Of a stretch of 47,637 bases of DNA, positions 24,807 to 32,234 are shown in pieces (position 1 is the first letter of the stretch; each line of letters opens with the position of its first letter). Origin of the DNA: Rhodospirillales bacterium (GTDB lineage: Bacteria; Pseudomonadota; Alphaproteobacteria; Rhodospirillales; Defluviicoccaceae); the NCBI GenBank assembly GCA_025458035.1, contig JALOTH010000002.1, positions 1-47,637 of the forward strand. The letters run 5' to 3'. The position numbers and the translations under genes were made by a program. A model generated the notes under the pieces. It was not told the DNA's origin and did no database searches. It saw only the letters and a program-made list of their open reading frames with translations.

Positions 24807-26504
24807 TCAGCGTGAGACCTCGTAGGCGATCAGGTAGCCGGCGAGGGCGACGACAACCCAGAACGCCATGCTGCCGGCGCTGACGGTGCGTGCCATCACC
24901 CCCTCCGGCCCGTGGTGGCGATGCACGAGATGCAGCAGCTGCGCCAGCAGGCCGCGCATGCCCTGGCGCAGAGCGCCGTGTAAGCGGGAGATGGCGCCCG
25001 CGATCCCGGCAACGGCGGTCGGCAGCAGGCGACGGTACGTCCAATCGAAATCGAGGTTCACCGACGGCAATTCCGGTGGATAGCGGTGGGTACGGTAGAG
25101 CCAGGTAAAGGCGAGCGCCGAAAACAACAGCAGCTGCGTCTGGGTGACGACGTGCTCGGTGGTGTAGGCGACGTAGTCGACGGCGTCCGGGAGCAGCGCA
25201 TAGAGCGGGGCGGGATGGACACCGATGCCGACACACAGCGCCGCGCCGATGGCCATGGCCGCCAGCATGTGCCACGGCGCCTCCTCGACCCGCCGGCCTG
25301 AGTCGTGGGCAAAGAAGGCGAAGAACGGGATCTTGATTCCGGCATGGTGGAAGACGCCAGCGGAGGCAAACAGCAGCAGCAGCCACGGCACGAACAGCCC
25401 TTCGTGAACGATGGCGGCCATGATCATGCCTTTGCTGACGAAGCCGCTGAACAGCGGGAAGGCCGAAATCGACGCCGCGCCGATGATGCAGAGGCCGGCG
25501 GTCTTCGGCATCGTCTTGTAAAGGCCGCCGAGCTCCGAGCCCTTGATGGTGCCCGTGCGCAACAGGACCGCGCCCATCGCCATGAACAGCACAGCCTTGA
25601 AGATCATGTCGCAGAAGGCGTGGGCGACGGCGCCATTGAGGCTCAGGGTCGTGCCGACGCCGATCCCGGCGACCATGAAGCCGAGCTGGTTGATTGTGCT
25701 GTAGCCGAGGACGCGCCGCAGGTCATTCTCGATGACGGCGTAGAAGATCGGAAAGCAGGCCATGGCGACGCCGATCCAGATCAGGATCTCGGTTCCGGGA
25801 AAGCCGCGGGCCAGGGCGTAGATGGCGAGCTTGGTGGTGAAAGCGCTGAGCCAGACGGTGCCGGTCGGCGTCGATTCCGGGTAGGCGTCCACCAGCCAGT
25901 TGTGCAGCAAGGGAAACGCCGCCTTGATGCCGAACGCGATGAAGATCAGCGCGCCGGCGGTATCACCAAGGCCGATGACGTCGAAGGCGGCAGATCCCGT
26001 TTCTTGGAAGCGCAGGACGGCGCCGGCCAGCAGCAGCACGCCCGAGCCCACCTGAACGATCAGGTAGCGCACGCCGGCGTGGTAGGACGGCGGCGTGCCG
26101 CGGGCCCAGATCAGCAGGACGGAGCCGATCGCCGCCATCTCCCAGAAGACGAACAGGGTGAGCAGATCGCCGGCCAGCGCCGCGCCCAGGGCACTGCCGG
26201 CGTAAACGAGGCTGGCTGCCGCTTCGATGCGTGACTGCACGGTCCAAGCGAACAGTGCCGCCAAGACGGCGGCGAGGCAGAACAGGATGGCGAACAGCCG
26301 GGCGAGGCCGTCCACCCGTAAGGTGATCAGTTCGACGCCGAGAAAGGAGAGCCGCCCCGCCAAGCCTCCTTCAAGACCCAGCACGATGCCGGTGACGGCG
26401 ATGGGCAGGGCGACGCAATAGGCGGCGCGGAGGCGCGATGGCAGGATTGCCGCCAGCAGCCCGCCGAAGATGAGCCAGACGCCGGGGTTAATAGCGGTCG
26501 TCAT
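24807..26504 (-). CDS. mnhD: Mrp/Mnh antiporter D-like subunit (third copy)
   Basis: A 565-residue NuoL/M/N-like proton-translocating subunit with about 14 or more membrane segments. The essential residues of the family are kept: E122 (FVFWEMAA), K194 (FGIKAAFPLLHNW) and K225 (AFTTKLAIYAL). It has a long C-terminal extension after residue ~460, containing a soluble stretch and a last membrane helix, which the other two copies lack. It overlaps the small gene upstream by 17 bases and is the last gene of the operon, converging on clpB. Confidence 0.88.
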   Translation of the reverse strand: MTTAINPGVWLIFGGLLAAILPSRLRAAYCVALPIAVTGIVLGLEGGLAGRLSFLGVELITLRVDGLARLFAILFCLAAVLAALFAWTVQSRIEAAASLVYAGSALGAALAGDLLTLFVFWEMAAIGSVLLIWARGTPPSYHAGVRYLIVQVGSGVLLLAGAVLRFQETGSAAFDVIGLGDTAGALIFIAFGIKAAFPLLHNWLVDAYPESTPTGTVWLSAFTTKLAIYALARGFPGTEILIWIGVAMACFPIFYAVIENDLRRVLGYSTINQLGFMVAGIGVGTTLSLNGAVAHAFCDMIFKAVLFMAMGAVLLRTGTIKGSELGGLYKTMPKTAGLCIIGAASISAFPLFSGFVSKGMIMAAIVHEGLFVPWLLLLFASAGVFHHAGIKIPFFAFFAHDSGRRVEEAPWHMLAAMAIGAALCVGIGVHPAPLYALLPDAVDYVAYTTEHVVTQTQLLLFSALAFTWLYRTHRYPPELPSVNLDFDWTYRRLLPTAVAGIAGAISRLHGALRQGMRGLLAQLLHLVHRHHGPEGVMARTVSAGSMAFWVVVALAGYLIAYEVSR

Positions 26505-26757
26505 CGTAATAGCTCTCCGGGCGCATCAGCACCCGGCGCATCGCCTTGGCGATCATCACCAGCGCGACGCAGGCGACGAAGCCGTAAACCCCGTAAAAGC
26601 CGAACACGTCTTCGATGGCGAAGCCGTGGCTGGCATAGAGCGCGCTGCCGAGAAAGGCGATGGCGCTGATGGCGATCAGCGCGCGGACAATGGTGCGGAC
26701 GTTCTTTGCGTCATCGAGCCAGTCGCGACGGTCTCCGGGTGTCGGCGGTGCGGTCAT
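26488..26757 (-). CDS. Small two-helix membrane protein in the antiporter operon, unknown function
   Basis: An 89-residue protein with a charged N-terminus (RRDWLDDAKNVRTIVRALI), two predicted membrane helices (about 24-44 and 50-72) and a basic then acidic tail ending ESYYDDDRY. I do not recognise it as a standard Mrp subunit. It starts seven bases after the second D-like gene and overlaps the third, so it is almost certainly translated with them. It may be an accessory or assembly subunit; that is inferred from position only. Confidence 0.7.
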   Translation of the reverse strand: MTAPPTPGDRRDWLDDAKNVRTIVRALIAISAIAFLGSALYASHGFAIEDVFGFYGVYGFVACVALVMIAKAMRRVLMRPESYYDDDRY

Positions 26758-26764
26758 CGGTCCG

Positions 26765-28240
26765 TCATTTCACCAAGGGTTCGAGAAAGGCGAAGATCGG
26801 TTCGGCGAAAAAGAACAGGGCAAGAGTGCCGATCGCGGTCAGCCACAACGGGGCGACGCAAAGCAGTGGCGCTTCCCGGATGCCGGCGGCAGTCCCATCA
26901 TGGCCCGGATCGCCGCTCTTCGCCGGCGCCATGAAGCCGACCACCGCCACCGGCAGCAGGTAGGCGATGCTGAGCAGCGAGGACAGCATCAGCGCGCCCA
27001 TCAGCAGCAACTGGCCGGTGTCGGCGGTCGCCAGCATCAGCATCCACTTGCTCCACGAACCGCCGGTGGGCGGCAGGCCGATGATGCTCAGGGACGCCAG
27101 CAGAAAGGCGGCGAAGGTGAACGGCATGCGCCGGCCGAGGCCATGCATGTCGCTGATTTCGGTCTTGTGGCTGGCGACGAGAATGGCGCCGGCGCAGAAG
27201 AACAGGGTGATCTTGCCGAAGGCGTGCATGGCGATGTGCATGGCGCCGCCGATGATCCCGGCCCCGGTCGCCAGCATGGCACCAAGGACGATGTAGGAAA
27301 GCTGGCTCACCGTGGAATAGGCGAGACGTGCCTTCAGGTTGTCCTTGGTCAGGGCGATCAGCGAGCCGATCAGGATCGTCGCCGCGGCGACGTAGGTCAG
27401 CCAGACGCTGATGCCGGTATCGCCCAGAAAGTCCAAGCCGAAGATGTACAGGGTCACCTTGAGGATACAGAAGACGCCCGCCTTGACGACGGCGACGGCG
27501 TGCAGGAGTGCGCTCACCGGCGTCGGCGCCACCATCGCCGCCGGCAGCCAGCGGTGCAGCGGCATCAGCGCCGCCTTGGCGATGCCGAAGACGAACAGCG
27601 CCAGGATGATCGCCGCGCCGCTGTCGGAAATGTTGCCGGCGAGGATGCCGCCCGGCGCGAAGGTGACGGTGCCGGCCGCCTGGTTGGTGGCGATGATCGC
27701 CGGCAGCATCAAGGCGAATGACGCCGCCAGCAGCAGTCCGGCGTAGGTCCGCGCCCCGTTGCGCGCCTCGGCGGTGCCTGCATGCCCCACCAGCGGAAAC
27801 GTGCTCAAGGTGAGCGCCTCGTAGAAGACGAAGAGGGTCACCAGGTTGGCGGAAAAGGCCACCCCCATGGCGGCGGCGATGGCGATGGCGAAGAACGCGT
27901 AAAAGCGGGTCTGGTTCTCCTCGTGGTGCGCCCGCATGTAGCCGATCGAATAGACGGAGGTGACGATCCACAGCAGGCTGGCGACGACGGCGAAGACGCA
28001 GGCCAGCGGTTCCGCCGACAGCGCGATCGTCACCCCCGGCAGAAAGCCGATCAGCGCCACCTCCGGCCGTTCGCCTTCGAGAACGGCACTGACGATGCCG
28101 ACGACGACGGCCAGCAGCAGCACGGCGGTGAGCAGGGTGACGGCTTCGCGCAGATTGGGGTTGCGGCCGGCCGCCGCGATCAGGATGGCGCCGACCAGCG
28201 GCAGGACGACGGCAAGTTCCATCAGCGCGACCGGTGTCAT
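26765..28240 (-). CDS. mnhD: Mrp/Mnh antiporter D-like subunit (second copy)
   Basis: A 491-residue NuoM/NuoN-like membrane subunit. The family residues are present: E141 (FVFYEALTLS), K222 (FGIAKAALMPLHRW) and K253 (AVVKAGVF). Its start overlaps the preceding D-like gene as ATGA. Much longer open frames on the same strand extend upstream but are GC-driven; the domain begins at this ATG. Three D-like subunits in one operon imply three antiporter-type channels or replacement of the large MnhA subunit. Confidence 0.92.
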   Translation of the reverse strand: MTPVALMELAVVLPLVGAILIAAAGRNPNLREAVTLLTAVLLLAVVVGIVSAVLEGERPEVALIGFLPGVTIALSAEPLACVFAVVASLLWIVTSVYSIGYMRAHHEENQTRFYAFFAIAIAAAMGVAFSANLVTLFVFYEALTLSTFPLVGHAGTAEARNGARTYAGLLLAASFALMLPAIIATNQAAGTVTFAPGGILAGNISDSGAAIILALFVFGIAKAALMPLHRWLPAAMVAPTPVSALLHAVAVVKAGVFCILKVTLYIFGLDFLGDTGISVWLTYVAAATILIGSLIALTKDNLKARLAYSTVSQLSYIVLGAMLATGAGIIGGAMHIAMHAFGKITLFFCAGAILVASHKTEISDMHGLGRRMPFTFAAFLLASLSIIGLPPTGGSWSKWMLMLATADTGQLLLMGALMLSSLLSIAYLLPVAVVGFMAPAKSGDPGHDGTAAGIREAPLLCVAPLWLTAIGTLALFFFAEPIFAFLEPLVK

Positions 28241-29718
28241 TCGCCGCTTCCCAGCAACTGCTTGGCGGTGACGACGGCAAAGTCGCCGATCAGGGAGCCG
28301 TCGATGGCGATGACCACGGTGGCGACGGTCAAGGCGACGAGCGCGAGCAGCATCGGCGCCGGCGCTTCCCGCACCGCGGCCACCCGCTCCGACGGCGGAT
28401 GCAGGTAGGCGGCGGCGATCAGCCGCCAGACATAGACCAGCGCCAGCAGGCTGGCGGCGACGATGACCACGGCCACCCACCACCAGTTGCGGTCAAGGGC
28501 GCCCTGCAGCAGCAGCCACTTGGTGATGAAGCCAAGGGTCAGCGGTGCGCCGACGAGGCTGAGGCCGCCGACGACGACGCAGGCGGCGGTGATCGGCATC
28601 GGCTTGGCGAAGCCGCGAATGTCGCGCAGGTCGGCGGAGCCGATGCGGAAGATGATGCAGCCGACGGCCATGAACAGAATCGCCTTGATCATGGCGTGGT
28701 TGAAGATGTGGACGACGGCGCCGGCAAGGCCGGTGACGTCGGCGAGGCCGAGGCCGAGCACCATGTAGCCGATCTGCGAGATGCTGGAAAATGCCAGCAG
28801 GCGCTTGACGTTGGTCTGCCACACCGCCGCCAGCGCGCCGACGATCATCGAAAGCAGCCCGAAGCCCACCAGCACTTCGTCGATCGGCATCACCGCGAAC
28901 ATCGTCGGGCCGCCGAACATGGTGTAGGCGATGCGGATCAGCGCATAGACGGCAACCTTGGTCGCCGTCGCCGCGAGAAAGACGGTGACCACCGTCGGCG
29001 CGAAGGCATAGGCGTTGGGCAGCCACAGGTGCAGGGGAAACAGCGCCAGTTTCAAGCCGAGGCCGACGGTGAGGAAGGCGAGCGCCATCTGCACGGTGCG
29101 GATATGAGTCATCTCCGGCACGCGCGCGGCGAGATCGGCGATGTTGAGGGTCCCGGTGACCATGTAGAGAAGGCCGATGCCCAGCACGTAGAAGGTCGCG
29201 CCGAGGGTGCCCATGATCAGGTAGCGAAAGGCGGCGGTCAGCGCCCGCCGATCGGTGCCAAGGCTGATCAGCACGTACGACGACAGTGACGAGATCTCGA
29301 GAAAGACGAACAGGTTGAAGGCGTCACCGGTGACCGGAATGCCCATCAGCCCGGTGAAACACAGCAAATACATGGTGTAGAACAGATAGCCACGGTCGGC
29401 GGCGACCTCGGCCTCGACCGACCGGCGGGCAAAGATCATCGACAGAAAGCCGATGGCGGCGACGGTGACGAGGACGAAGGCGCTCAATCCGTCGACCCGG
29501 TATTCGATGCCCCATGGCGGCGGCCAGCCGCCGATGGCATAGGAAACCGGGCCTTCGTTGACGACGTGCACGAGCAGGATCAGCGACGCCACGAAGGCGC
29601 CGCCGGTCACCAGCAGCGCCAGCAGCCAGCCGGCGAAAGCATTGCGCAGGATAACGCAAATGGGGGCCGCCATCAGCGGCAGAACGATTTGCAGGATCGG
29701 CTGATGAACGGAGATCAC
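28237..29718 (-). CDS. mnhD: Mrp/Mnh antiporter D-like subunit (first copy)
   Basis: A 493-residue proton-translocating subunit, the most typical MnhD of the three. It keeps E141 (FVFLEISSLSSYVL), K223 (GLKLALFPLHLWLP) and K254 (TATKVAVYAL). It starts with GTG overlapping the mnhC stop (GTGA), the expected MnhC-MnhD order. The product forms part of a membrane complex exchanging Na+ or K+ for protons. Confidence 0.94.
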   Translation of the reverse strand: MISVHQPILQIVLPLMAAPICVILRNAFAGWLLALLVTGGAFVASLILLVHVVNEGPVSYAIGGWPPPWGIEYRVDGLSAFVLVTVAAIGFLSMIFARRSVEAEVAADRGYLFYTMYLLCFTGLMGIPVTGDAFNLFVFLEISSLSSYVLISLGTDRRALTAAFRYLIMGTLGATFYVLGIGLLYMVTGTLNIADLAARVPEMTHIRTVQMALAFLTVGLGLKLALFPLHLWLPNAYAFAPTVVTVFLAATATKVAVYALIRIAYTMFGGPTMFAVMPIDEVLVGFGLLSMIVGALAAVWQTNVKRLLAFSSISQIGYMVLGLGLADVTGLAGAVVHIFNHAMIKAILFMAVGCIIFRIGSADLRDIRGFAKPMPITAACVVVGGLSLVGAPLTLGFITKWLLLQGALDRNWWWVAVVIVAASLLALVYVWRLIAAAYLHPPSERVAAVREAPAPMLLALVALTVATVVIAIDGSLIGDFAVVTAKQLLGSGE

Positions 29719-30071
29719 GTCACGTCGCCTTCCAGCTTGGCGATCTCGTCATCTTCGATGCTGCCGAAGGCGTCGCGGATGCGCACCACCAATGCCAACC
29801 CCACCGCCATGGTGGCAACGCCGACGACGATGGCGGTGAGGATGAGCACGCTGGGGATCGGGTTGGTATAGGTCGCGAAACCCGGGGCGAGAATGGGCGC
29901 GGTGCCGCCCTCCACCTTGCCCATGGAAATATAAAAGACGAATACGGAAACCTGAAAAATGTTGAGGCCAAATATTTTTTTGACCAGGTTGCCCTGTGAT
30001 ATGACGATATAAAAACCGATCATCATCAGCGCGATGACAATCCAGTAATTGAAAAGGCCGGGAAAATCCAT
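29715..30071 (-). CDS. mnhC: Mrp/Mnh antiporter subunit C (NuoK-like)
   Basis: A 118-residue, three-helix membrane subunit homologous to NuoK. It shows LFNYWIVIALMMIGFYIVIS at the N-terminus and the conserved NPIPSVLILTAIVVGVATMA segment near 70-89. The first half of the gene (about 29,925-30,050) is distinctly richer in A/T than its neighbours, with codons such as ATA and TTT, which is unusual here. It follows the A-prime/B fusion after six bases and overlaps the next D-like gene. Confidence 0.93.
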   Translation of the reverse strand: MDFPGLFNYWIVIALMMIGFYIVISQGNLVKKIFGLNIFQVSVFVFYISMGKVEGGTAPILAPGFATYTNPIPSVLILTAIVVGVATMAVGLALVVRIRDAFGSIEDDEIAKLEGDVT

Positions 30072-30077
30072 CGCCGT

Positions 30078-31124
30078 TCAGTCCACTTGCTGCGGATCTT
30101 GGCCGGCGAACACGAAAAAAACCGTCATCATCGCCGAAGCGACGGTGATGCCGACACCGAGTTCGATGAGAATGATGCCCAGCTCCTGGCCGTGCACCGG
30201 GTCGTGGGCGAGCACCGAGTAGTCGAGATAGTTGCCACCGAGAAGCACCCCGGCAATGCCGACGCCGGCATAGATGAGCACGCCCAGCGCCAGCGTTCCC
30301 CGCAGCACGCTGGCCGGCGCTACCGCGCGAGCCATCGGCACGCCGAACAGCAGCGCATAGAGGATGAACGCCGAAGCGAAGATGACGCCGGCCTGGAAGC
30401 CGCCGCCGGGTCCGAGCTCACCGTGCGCCTGCGTGTAGAATGCGAACAGCAGGATGGGCGGGATCAGCAGCTTTCCCCCCACCCGCAAGATCGCCTTGAA
30501 CCGCATCTCGCCGGAATCGCCGGGAACGGCTGCGCCCTCCGAACCGGGCGCGGCGGGCGCCCGGCCAGGCCCGCCGCCGGCCGCCACGCGCGGGTTTGCC
30601 ACCGGATAGCGGCGGCCGCGGCCCAGCAGCACCAGCACCCCGACCCCGGCGGTGAAGATCACCGTCGTCTCGCCGAGCGTGTCAAAGCCGCGGTAGCTGG
30701 CGAGAACCGAGGTGACGATGTTCGGAACGCCGGTTTCGGCGAGCGAGTCCTCAATGTAGCGGGGCGCAACGTGGGTGTGGATCGGGGCGTCGGGATCGCC
30801 CCACCCCGGCATGTCGAGGGTGCCGTAGATGAGCGCGGCGCCGGTGACCAGCACCACGATCAGCGCCGGCAGGTGAAAGACCCGCGTGCGCTTCTCATGC
30901 TCGGTGCGCGTCAGGGCAAGGCTGGCGAGGCCGAGGACGGTGGCGATGCCGGCGCCAACCGAGGCTTCGGTGAAGGCGACGTCAACGGCGCCGAGCACCA
31001 CCCAGAGCGAGGCGGCGGTGAGGCTGAATATGCCCGAGAACATGACCACCGCCAAAAGGTTGCGCAGCCAGACGAGGCCCAGCGCCGTCGCCACCATGAT
31101 CATCAGCAGGCTGATATTGATCAC
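30078..31124 (-). CDS. Fusion of MnhA C-terminal (MbhD/MbhE-like) region with MnhB
   Basis: A 348-residue membrane protein with three parts. Residues 1-75 match the DUF4040/MbhD part of MrpA (LRNLLAVVMFSGIFSLTAAS, AVDVAFTEASVGAGIATVL). Residues ~80-170 match the MbhE-like part (SYRGFDTLGETTVIFTAGVG). An Ala/Gly/Pro linker (178-205) joins these to an MnhB domain (205-348) with HGELGPGGGFQAGVIFASAF. The N-terminal NuoL-like part of MnhA is absent. The GTG start at 31124 overlaps the mnhG stop (GTGA), which fixes it. Confidence 0.9.
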   Translation of the reverse strand: MINISLLMIMVATALGLVWLRNLLAVVMFSGIFSLTAASLWVVLGAVDVAFTEASVGAGIATVLGLASLALTRTEHEKRTRVFHLPALIVVLVTGAALIYGTLDMPGWGDPDAPIHTHVAPRYIEDSLAETGVPNIVTSVLASYRGFDTLGETTVIFTAGVGVLVLLGRGRRYPVANPRVAAGGGPGRAPAAPGSEGAAVPGDSGEMRFKAILRVGGKLLIPPILLFAFYTQAHGELGPGGGFQAGVIFASAFILYALLFGVPMARAVAPASVLRGTLALGVLIYAGVGIAGVLLGGNYLDYSVLAHDPVHGQELGIILIELGVGITVASAMMTVFFVFAGQDPQQVD

Positions 31125-31468
31125 GCTTTCGATGACGGCGCTCCTTCCGAAGGCGAGCTTCGATCCCCGAGCCACGGCAGCACGCGACCGTGCAGCGCGG
31201 CGCGCGCCAGCGCATGGGTGGCGGTGGGACTGGTGAACAGGATGAAGACGATGATCAGGATGAGCTTGACGGCGACGGTCCACGAGGGTGACTGCAGGAC
31301 GAGCCCGACGATGATCAGCCCGGCTGCCAGCGTGTCGATCAGCCCCGCCGCATGCATGCGCGAGAAGACATCCGGCAGGCGCAGCAGGCCGATGCCGCCG
31401 ATCAGCGCCGCCAGCACGCCGGCGACGAGGCAGAGCCAGCTGAGACCGTCAAGCAGCACCGCCACCAT
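31121..31468 (-). CDS. mnhG: Mrp/Mnh antiporter subunit G
   Basis: A 115-residue small membrane subunit with three helices and the family core GGIGLLRLPDVFSRMHAAGL (24-43) followed by DTLAAGLIIVGL and a KLILIIVFILFTSPTATHAL block (68-87). The C-terminal ~25 residues are polar and Ser/Pro-rich. Its start overlaps the mnhF stop by one base and its stop overlaps the fusion gene start. Confidence 0.94.
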   Translation of the reverse strand: MVAVLLDGLSWLCLVAGVLAALIGGIGLLRLPDVFSRMHAAGLIDTLAAGLIIVGLVLQSPSWTVAVKLILIIVFILFTSPTATHALARAALHGRVLPWLGDRSSPSEGAPSSKA

Positions 31469-31755
31469 CAGACGTCGGACCAGCTGCGCTGTTCGAAGGG
31501 GCCGCCGAGATGGGCGAACTTGGCGAACTTGGTGACGGCAATCAGCGCGATGAAGTTGATCAGGGTATAGACCAGCGCGATATCGAGGAAGTCCGGCCGG
31601 CCGCTCAGAAAGCCATGCACCGCGATCAGCAGGACGGTCAGCGTACCGAACGCGTTGACGGCGAGAATCCGGTCGTAGACCGTCGGCCCCGCCAGTCCGC
31701 GCACGAGCACCAGCGCCATCGCCAGCAACACGCCGAGGGCGGTGAAACCGAACAT
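31468..31755 (-). CDS. mnhF: Mrp/Mnh antiporter subunit F
   Basis: A 95-residue three-helix subunit with the family signature RGLAGPTVYDRILAVNAFGT (near 20-39) and the helix FLDIALVYTLINFIALIAVT. The ATG at 31755 is used because it overlaps the mnhE stop (TGATG). An upstream in-frame start would add 18 residues that are not family-like. Confidence 0.94.
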   Translation of the reverse strand: MFGFTALGVLLAMALVLVRGLAGPTVYDRILAVNAFGTLTVLLIAVHGFLSGRPDFLDIALVYTLINFIALIAVTKFAKFAHLGGPFEQRSWSDV

Positions 31756-32234
31756 CACGTCGCCGCCTCGATCGCCGCAACCCGCCGGTTCATTTCGCTG
31801 TCCTCCCATCCGGATGCCGCCTGCGCGGTCAGCGCGTAGACGGTGAGTTCCTCGCCATCGAGGGCGATCGTCACCGTTCCCGGCGTCAGCGTGATCGAGT
31901 TGGCGAAGATGACCCGCCCGAGTTCCGTCCGCTGTCGTCCGCGAACGGTGAACACCGCGGGCGCGATCGGCAGGCTCGGTGCCAGGATCACCTTGGCCAC
32001 GTCGATGCTGGACACGACGATCTCCTTGAGCAGCCAGGGCCAGTAGGCGAGGACCTTAAGGCTCAGGTGCACCGGGTGGCCTTCGTGGTCGACCACGTCC
32101 ATGTGGCGAGAGAGCAGCACAACAAGCACCACGGAGACGGCGCCCATGGCAAGCAGCAGCGGTTTGTCGAAATAACCGGAGAGCAGCAGCCACAGGGCGG
32201 CCATAGCGAGGCCAAGGCTGACGGCGCGTGTCAT
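31755..32234 (-). CDS. mnhE: Mrp/Mnh antiporter subunit E
   Basis: A 159-residue subunit with two N-terminal membrane helices followed by a soluble domain. The family block YWPWLLKEIVVSSIDVAKVI is at 64-83 and VIFANSITLTPGTVTIALDG at 108-127. It is the first gene of the nine-gene antiporter operon. A strong purine-rich ribosome site (GGAAGGGGAG) precedes the ATG. Confidence 0.93.
   Translation of the reverse strand: MTRAVSLGLAMAALWLLLSGYFDKPLLLAMGAVSVVLVVLLSRHMDVVDHEGHPVHLSLKVLAYWPWLLKEIVVSSIDVAKVILAPSLPIAPAVFTVRGRQRTELGRVIFANSITLTPGTVTIALDGEELTVYALTAQAASGWEDSEMNRRVAAIEAAT

Follow-up and report, generated by a model that had tools for sequence, protein, structure and literature searches.

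A Mrp-type antiporter operon with three antiporter-like subunits and a long predicted lateral helix in a Rhodospirillales bacterium

A 47,637-nucleotide stretch of DNA from a Rhodospirillales bacterium (GenBank assembly GCA_025458035.1, contig JALOTH010000002.1; the window) carries nine tightly packed minus-strand genes, running from position 32234 to 24807, that probably encode a cation/proton antiporter of the Mrp type whose single membrane arm holds three antiporter-like subunits. A reading of the open reading frames (ORFs) gives the order E-F-G-(A'B)-C-D1-D2-S-D3, with start/stop overlaps of four bases or one base between several of the genes, and all nine ORFs lie on this strand at the positions and in the order given by a first-pass annotation of this DNA. 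Pfam and NCBIfam searches named every subunit except S, with D1, D2 and D3 all recognized by Pfam as Proton_antipo_M proteins, and they confirmed the fusion of MbhD/MbhE-like and MnhB segments proposed in that annotation (Table 1), a protein that also exceeded the cut-off of the NCBIfam model PRK12507 (386 bits). This cluster (hereafter the three-D operon) encodes together the E, F, G, B, C and D subunit types and both parts of MrpA (MnhA), with the MrpA parts on two genes, D2 and A'.

The latter assignment departs from the first-pass annotation, in which the NuoL-like part of MnhA was missing and two extra D-like subunits were proposed as its replacement. In searches of the Protein Data Bank (PDB), the best matches were MbsH, MbhH and MrpD for D1 and NdhF and NuoL for D2, and D3 gave close scores for MrpA, MrpD and MbsH. 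Four trees of antiporter-like subunits (110, 52, 33 and 54 rows, the 52-row tree being a quick version) all kept D1, D2 and D3 apart. D1 fell on the MrpD/NuoN/MbhH side (support in the Shimodaira–Hasegawa-like approximate likelihood ratio test, SH-aLRT, of 98, 92, 84 and 80 in the order given), its clade support falling to 34 once haloarchaeal rows joined; D2 grouped with MrpA and NuoL in the 110-, 33- and 54-row trees (SH-aLRT 97, 88 and 95); and D3 formed a clade of its own in all four (support 100, 100, 100 and 99). The candidate in which all three are ordinary MnhD proteins, against which the first-pass annotation had set its reading, was rejected when one clade with MrpD was imposed in the approximately unbiased (AU) test (p-AU 0.0002).

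A histidine in transmembrane segment 8 (TM8) is described as conserved only in NuoL and MrpA (PMC4938563), and its loss abolished salt-tolerant growth in Mrp (PMC9568556). By alignment, this residue is present in 86 of 87 D2 proteins, in none of 79 D1 proteins and in none of 94 D3 proteins, and His247 of D2 aligns with H254 of NuoL, which together with E144 and K229 served as a reference position (PMC4938563). Because D2 groups with MrpA and NuoL in three of the four trees and carries their TM8 histidine, its sequence identifies it as the NuoL-like half of MnhA, so that MnhA is judged to be split (D2 plus A') and not lost; loss of MnhA was considered as a candidate and ruled out, D2 and A' being its two halves. 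By the same kind of evidence D1 is MrpD-like and D3 is the sole extra subunit, one where two had been proposed.

Each of the three antiporter-like subunits retains the residues expected of a proton channel, and the Glu/Lys pair that the first-pass annotation saw in all three proteins of the window is indeed intact. The series Glu(TM5)-Lys(TM7)-Lys(TM8)-Lys(TM12) is kept in 79/79, 79/79, 78/79 and 79/79 D1 rows, in 86/87, 87/87, 85/87 and 87/87 D2 rows, and in 93/94, 90/94, 93/94 and 93/94 D3 rows, the D3 exceptions including Gln for Glu in one protein (L049) and four rows without the TM7 lysine. The TM12 residue is Lys in all three classes, as in Mrp, and Glu in NuoM (4/4). The NuoM and NuoN residue numbers and K399 of NuoL also served as anchors for these residues.

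The C-terminal part of D3 suggests how three such subunits might be held together. The AlphaFold2 (AF2) model of D2 (predicted local distance difference test score, pLDDT, 89.2) ends at TM14, without a lateral helix. The D3 model (pLDDT 86.8, predicted template modelling score 0.84; residues 479-485 below 50), whose best Foldseek match is MrpA (7qru_A), continues after the core with a helix at residues 449-471, a single 46-residue helix and a last helix at 543-564, which is the layout of a transmembrane helix, a lateral helix (HL) and a last transmembrane helix found in MrpA, NuoL and MbsH'. The interval from the HL start motif to TM16 has a median of 35 (range 32-38; 18/19 rows) in MrpA, which serves two antiporter-like subunits, 63 (59-67; 13/13) in NuoL, which serves three, 65.5 (60-89; 86/94) in D3 of Mrp operons, and 87 (87-88; 4/4) in D3 of complex I clusters with four. 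A cruder measure, the distance between the TM15 and TM16 peaks, also sets D3 (94; 89/94 rows, range 62-113) far above MrpA (63; 19/19, 32-69) and near NuoL (103; 13/13, 96-110). The predicted lateral helix of D3 therefore has the length associated with three subunits, apart from two outliers considered below, and the models suggest that it is long enough to cross three antiporter-like subunits, as in complex I.

The layout is also widespread. Unless noted otherwise, counts of loci refer to a scan in which a D3 alignment was run against named genomes and from which the best 80 of 575 relatives were taken. The gene order is identical in all 63 complete operons among them (45 with split and 18 with fused A'/B), and it is not a product of chance because it is the same in all 63; the remaining 17 loci lack the upstream genes, apparently at contig ends. 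Most of the 80 belong to alpha-, beta- and gammaproteobacteria, cultured Shewanella, Ferrimonas and Microbulbifer strains among them; one record each carries the label Planctomycetota, Gemmatimonadota, Desulfocapsaceae, Akkermansiaceae, Polarisedimenticolaceae or Actinomadura, although labels of metagenome-assembled genomes (MAGs) can be wrong; in one locus (L152) D2 is in two pieces. In a set of 240 alphaproteobacterial genomes, the A'B model matched in 88, and at least 64 operon genomes are present among the matches listed (12 with the fusion over cut-off, 2 with a lower-scoring fusion and 50 with separate genes). A contiguous E F G A' B C D1 D2 D3 was found in 30 of 31 operon regions read from this set, the exception (L058) having D2 and D3 not adjacent to D1, and D3 exceeded the PRK12668 cut-off in 21 of 398 Pseudomonadota genomes, including one in which it resides in complex I (G475). 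Two haloarchaeal plasmids have the same order, E F G A' B C D1 D2 D3, so the three-D layout is real, common in bacteria and present in some archaea. Two genomes carry the operon twice, once with A'/B fused and once with A'/B split (G123, contigs C7 and C18; G227, C201 and C389), and in two genomes of 1.3-1.4 Mb (L050, L051; possibly Rickettsiales) the whole operon is very divergent and S was not detected.

Full-length MnhA was sought elsewhere in the window's genome and in others, and none was found in the operon-bearing genomes searched, in keeping with the first-pass annotation. The window's own genome, a MAG that is 96% complete, has six Proton_antipo_M matches (D1, D2, D3, NuoM, NuoN and a DabB-like protein) and one MnhB match, and no full-length MnhA was found among these profile matches. 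NuoL too is not among them; NuoM and NuoN lie on contig C126, where the NuoM frame ends ~50 bases from the contig end, and NuoL was probably lost in the gap there. Absence of MnhA from this MAG alone is weak evidence because NuoL is also not among the matches. A further 15 genomes were searched (11 with the three-D operon, 4 with classic mrp; matches assigned by position and frame length): no MrpA-length frame was found in any of the 11 operon-bearing genomes, which are 98-100% complete, and all 4 classic genomes searched alongside showed frames of 787-1124 residues. Each of the 11 has three matches in the Nuo cluster and three in the operon, with one extra, shorter match in 4 of them. The DabB-like gene of the window's genome, on contig C46, adjoins a gene judged by eye to be DabA-like (L038 5651-9831), a possible inorganic-carbon pump.

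The three-D operon can be compared first with the Mrp/Mnh antiporters of groups 1 and 2 (CPA3; 7qru, 6z16, 7d3u), with which it shares E, F, G, B, C, a D, both MrpA halves, the channel residues and the DTLGE and PGGGF motifs (DT.GE in 63/65 rows, PGGGF in 64/66). These groups have a single MrpD and a single full-length MrpA, which either stands alone or is fused to B, whereas the three-D operon has a split MrpA (D2, A'), the extra subunit D3, the additional protein S, a lateral-helix interval longer by ~30 residues, a shifted Glu in A' and Asn in place of the Asp of F. It instead agrees with the description of group 3, in which mrp clusters are filed when the subunits are present but irregular in order or copy number, D, C or B genes being added in some of them (PMC5703873). 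The group 3 Mrp of Ca. Nitrospira alkalitolerans has two NuoM/NuoL-like genes after mrpD (PMC7784846), a likeness drawn from the published description alone, and the two haloarchaeal plasmids, compared here under group 3, have the same order with more divergent subunits, S not being detected in either operon. NCBIfam models exist for these subunits, and annotators have already met proteins like the A'B fusion and D3, as the PRK12507 and PRK12668 cut-offs passed by them indicate. These precedents also accommodate the view that the operon is an ordinary group 3 Mrp in which the extra D is a neutral duplication and two channels work at 2 H+ per Na+. We regard this as unlikely, though not negligible, since D3 forms a clade of its own (support 99-100) and did not arise by recent duplication of D1 or D2, and since its conserved channel residues and complex-I-length lateral helix are unlike those of a neutral copy. 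Excerpts of four further articles (PMC12361115, PMC7599335, PMC5419562 and PMC2408715, the last with a table for Orientia that lists mnhE, mnhG, mbhE, mnhB and mnhC) did not settle whether a three-D Mrp had been described before, and no structural or functional study of one was found in the open-licence literature, although an earlier description may exist elsewhere. Layouts of a similar sort, like the D2/D3 pair, have already been published, and we rate the three-D Mrp as a variant of a known Mrp kind and not a new kind.

If the three antiporter-like subunits are assembled in one Mrp complex, D1 would be the counterpart of MrpD, adjoining C and A'; D2 would supply the N-terminal, NuoL-like half of MrpA as a protein of its own that lacks the lateral helix; A', fused to MrpB in the window, would be the C-terminal half of MrpA; and D3 would be the added subunit whose lateral helix spans all three, as in complex I. 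The membrane potential would then drive protons inward through three channels, and a monovalent cation would be expelled through the A'/B/C/F/G/E module. Because published models give 2 H+ per Na+ for two subunits (PMC7419157, PMC9568556), their extension to three channels would predict up to 3 H+ per cation. The first-pass annotation had raised a different ion stoichiometry as a possibility, and the length of the D3 lateral helix (~65 versus 35 in MrpA) lends support to that possibility.

By architecture the three-D operon is predicted to work like Mrp, with part of the known cation path changed. The path proposed for Mrp includes Glu687 of MrpA (Bacillus pseudofirmus), a His pair in MrpC, an Asp in MrpF and a further Glu (PMC7419157, PMC9568556), the last of which was equated with the Glu of DTLGE in this analysis and not by those articles; the positions were equated by phmmer, MAFFT and patterns. 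The Glu of A' lies four residues before the Glu687 site, as in MbhD/MbsD, in all 63 rows that have the motif (65 rows in total), and 18 of 19 classic MrpA proteins show the MrpA pattern (Q/E) at that site. MrpF of the window has Asn34 where Mrp, Mbh and Mbs structures have Asp (6z16_F, 7qru_F, 7d3u_F, 6cfw_B and 6u8y_B), with Asn in 62/63 relatives versus Asp in 7/7 classic alphaproteobacterial loci, so the operon does not combine an MrpA-type Glu (E687) in the C-terminal half with the MrpF Asp. MrpC has Gln40 in 64 of 65 relatives and lacks the His pair of the Bacillus-type structures; the missing pair does not mark out this family, since six classic alphaproteobacterial MrpC proteins also lack it.

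The position of the A' Glu, together with matches to PF13244 and PF20501, supports the likeness of A' to MbhD/MbhE that the first-pass annotation had remarked on, and a broader kinship with archaeal Mbs and Mbh (6u8y, 6cfw) is seen in D1, nearest MbsH/MbhH in the PDB, in A'B, which resembles MbhD/MbhE/MbhF, in C, nearest MbsG, and in the extra HL-bearing subunit MbsH', which parallels D3. It might be proposed on these grounds that the operon encodes an antiporter membrane arm for a redox enzyme, as in Mbh/Mbs and complex I, with the electron-transfer part encoded elsewhere; the replacement of NuoL by D2-S-D3 in rhizobial-type complex I and the cox-type genes in the flanks of 16 of 80 loci point the same way. 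We consider this improbable. An Mbh or Mbs operon would be expected to encode NiFe-hydrogenase-like subunits of an electron-transfer module, and a complex I cluster to encode a quinone/NADH module alongside its membrane arm, whereas no hydrogenase-like or NuoB/C/D/H-like gene occurs within the three-D operon (ORFs, Pfam), which has three antiporter-like subunits against two in Mbs and one in Mbh; the genome's NuoM and NuoN are on a different contig, as is its CoxG. None of the 16 most frequent flanking clusters looked hydrogenase-like or NuoB/C/D/H-like (only nine flanking proteins were scanned), and the cation module subunits E, F, G and B are present in 63/63 complete operons. The first-pass suggestion of coupling to a redox module does not hold in the form given: the operon contains no such module, but its block recurs in rhizobial complex I and cox-type genes flank some relatives.

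These flanking genes are coxG/coxS/coxM/xdhC (aerobic CO-dehydrogenase-like, molybdenum hydroxylase), identified by BLAST in the fetched flanks, in loci that include L079, L082, L085, L092, L101, L102, L105, L128, L138, L142 and L153. In L082, L092, L105, L128 and L138 the CoxG gene shares the strand of D3 and starts 7-64 bases downstream of it, and in the other loci the cox-type genes are up to ~9 kb away or on the opposite strand. A one-off literature search found nothing on cox-type genes beside a three-D operon.

The small protein S has two probable transmembrane segments (by eye), a conserved C-terminal R.EDYYD-like motif and, in a 34-row alignment, invariant Asp15, Val67, Arg74 and Arg79; no Pfam or NCBIfam family was found for it with either the window member or this alignment, just weak scattered matches. 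It was matched in 58 of 240 alphaproteobacterial genomes, 56 with the three-D operon (56 of the 64 listed operon genomes; it was not matched in the other 8) and two (G059, G181) with a complex-I-type block. A Rhizobium plasmid has the order NuoK, D2, an 84-residue S match, D3, NuoM, then NuoN, A, B, C, D, E, F and G; D2-S-D3 likewise adjoins NuoM and NuoN in Sinorhizobium medicae pSymB, G181 and G475, and G059 has D2 and S with a partial D3 where its contig ends. With the block in NuoL's place, complex I gene clusters (L227 6486-19746, L230, L199, L201) have four antiporter-like subunits. The rhizobial "green complex I" was already known to have two MrpD-like subunits in place of NuoL (PMC9040806, citing 2016 work), so the D2/D3 pair is known from that enzyme, where D2 and D3 belong to the same clades as here, stand beside NuoM and NuoN and show the helix interval of 87; in the three-D operon the block stands at the place of the N-terminal half of MrpA (MrpA-N). 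A 26-residue helix insert is reported for a five-pump variant and not for rhizobia (PMC9040806), a contrast other than the one between Mrp-resident and complex-I-resident D3 made here. Four-pump "2M" complex I (Chadwick et al., 2018, as cited in PMC9040806, PMC7419157 and PMC7784846) has, by description (PMC9040806), an extra antiporter-like subunit and a longer lateral helix like D3, and the three-D operon shows the same principle without redox genes.

Recurrence of D2-S-D3 as a block in two operon types might mean that D2, D3 and S make up a small ion channel or pump of their own, linked to a D1-based Mrp module by nothing more than co-transcription. This is the least probable of the explanations weighed, since the block takes the MrpA-N or NuoL place in both contexts, the helix grows longer as the total of antiporter-like subunits rises (35, 63-65, 87), and a Mrp built on D1 alone would be without MrpA-N. 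A stronger form of the three-subunit Mrp antiporter that we favour, in which it is a natural three-channel, non-redox Mrp exchanging ~3 H+ per cation by a changed ion path, D2-S-D3 is a portable pump cassette, taking the place of MrpA-N here and of NuoL in rhizobial complex I, and S is a new subunit of both, is offered tentatively, as a possibility that falls somewhat short of an even chance.

Several points weigh against a three-subunit antiporter. The case for it is built from sequences and predicted models, and part of the published Na+ path differs, so the complex may not move Na+. The D2 tie to MrpA/NuoL did not resolve in the 52-row tree, D3 found no settled neighbour in any of the four, and its placement on the D1/MrpD/NuoN/Mbh side was not rejected (p-AU 0.40). 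The four D3 rows from complex I are close relatives; one D3 in a three-D Mrp-type operon (L149, labelled Akkermansiaceae) has an interval of 89, like four-pump complex I, and a haloarchaeal one (L228), also in a three-D operon, has an interval of 99 that contains a low-complexity stretch. Furthermore, the helix anchors are hand-made patterns, with a separate one for MrpA; the first version found 3 of 19 MrpA proteins and was rewritten after the sequences were read, and the final one leaves out 1 MrpA and 8 D3 proteins.

Table 1. Genes of the three-D operon and the predicted lateral helix, in order of transcription
Feature	Positions	Strand	Basis
mrpE-like gene, 159 aa	31755..32234	-	PF01899 MNHE, 103 bits
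mrpF-like gene, 95 aa	31468..31755	-	PF04066, 62 bits; alternative GTG start possible at 31758
mrpG-like gene, 115 aa	31121..31468	-	PF03334, 92 bits; TIGR01300 over cut-off
A'B fusion (MbhD-like + MbhE-like + MnhB), 348 aa	30078..31124	-	PF13244, PF20501, PF04039 over cut-off
mrpC-like gene, 118 aa	29715..30071	-	PF00420; NF005624 over cut-off
D1, MrpD/NuoN/MbhH-class antiporter-like subunit, 493 aa	28237..29718	-	PF00361, 232 bits; PDB matches; trees
D2, MrpA/NuoL-class core, 491 aa	26765..28240	-	PF00361, 178 bits (longer frame scored); PDB matches NdhF, NuoL; AF2 model
S, small membrane protein, 89 aa	26488..26757	-	Conserved; not placed in any Pfam or NCBIfam family
D3, additional antiporter-like subunit ending in TM15, lateral helix and TM16, 565 aa	24807..26504	-	PRK12668, 670 bits, over cut-off
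Predicted lateral helix (HL) of D3, residues 486-531	24912..25049	-	AF2 model: single 46-residue helix

Two of the starts in Table 1 were chosen from gene overlaps: the GTG at 31124 is most likely the start of the A'B fusion, by way of a GTGA overlap with G, and the ATG at 28240 is most likely that of D2, by way of an ATGA overlap with D1.

A central question in bioenergetics, and one hard to isolate in a redox enzyme, is whether complex I moves one proton through each of its antiporter-like subunits. If the proposed architecture is correct, a two-channel Mrp, a three-channel Mrp and a four-channel complex I with D2-S-D3 would form a series in which the dependence of the ratio on subunit number could be measured without electron transfer. 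In addition, a three-unit arm with a long clamp helix that stands apart from a redox module, as suggested here, would bear on the history of how complex I was assembled.

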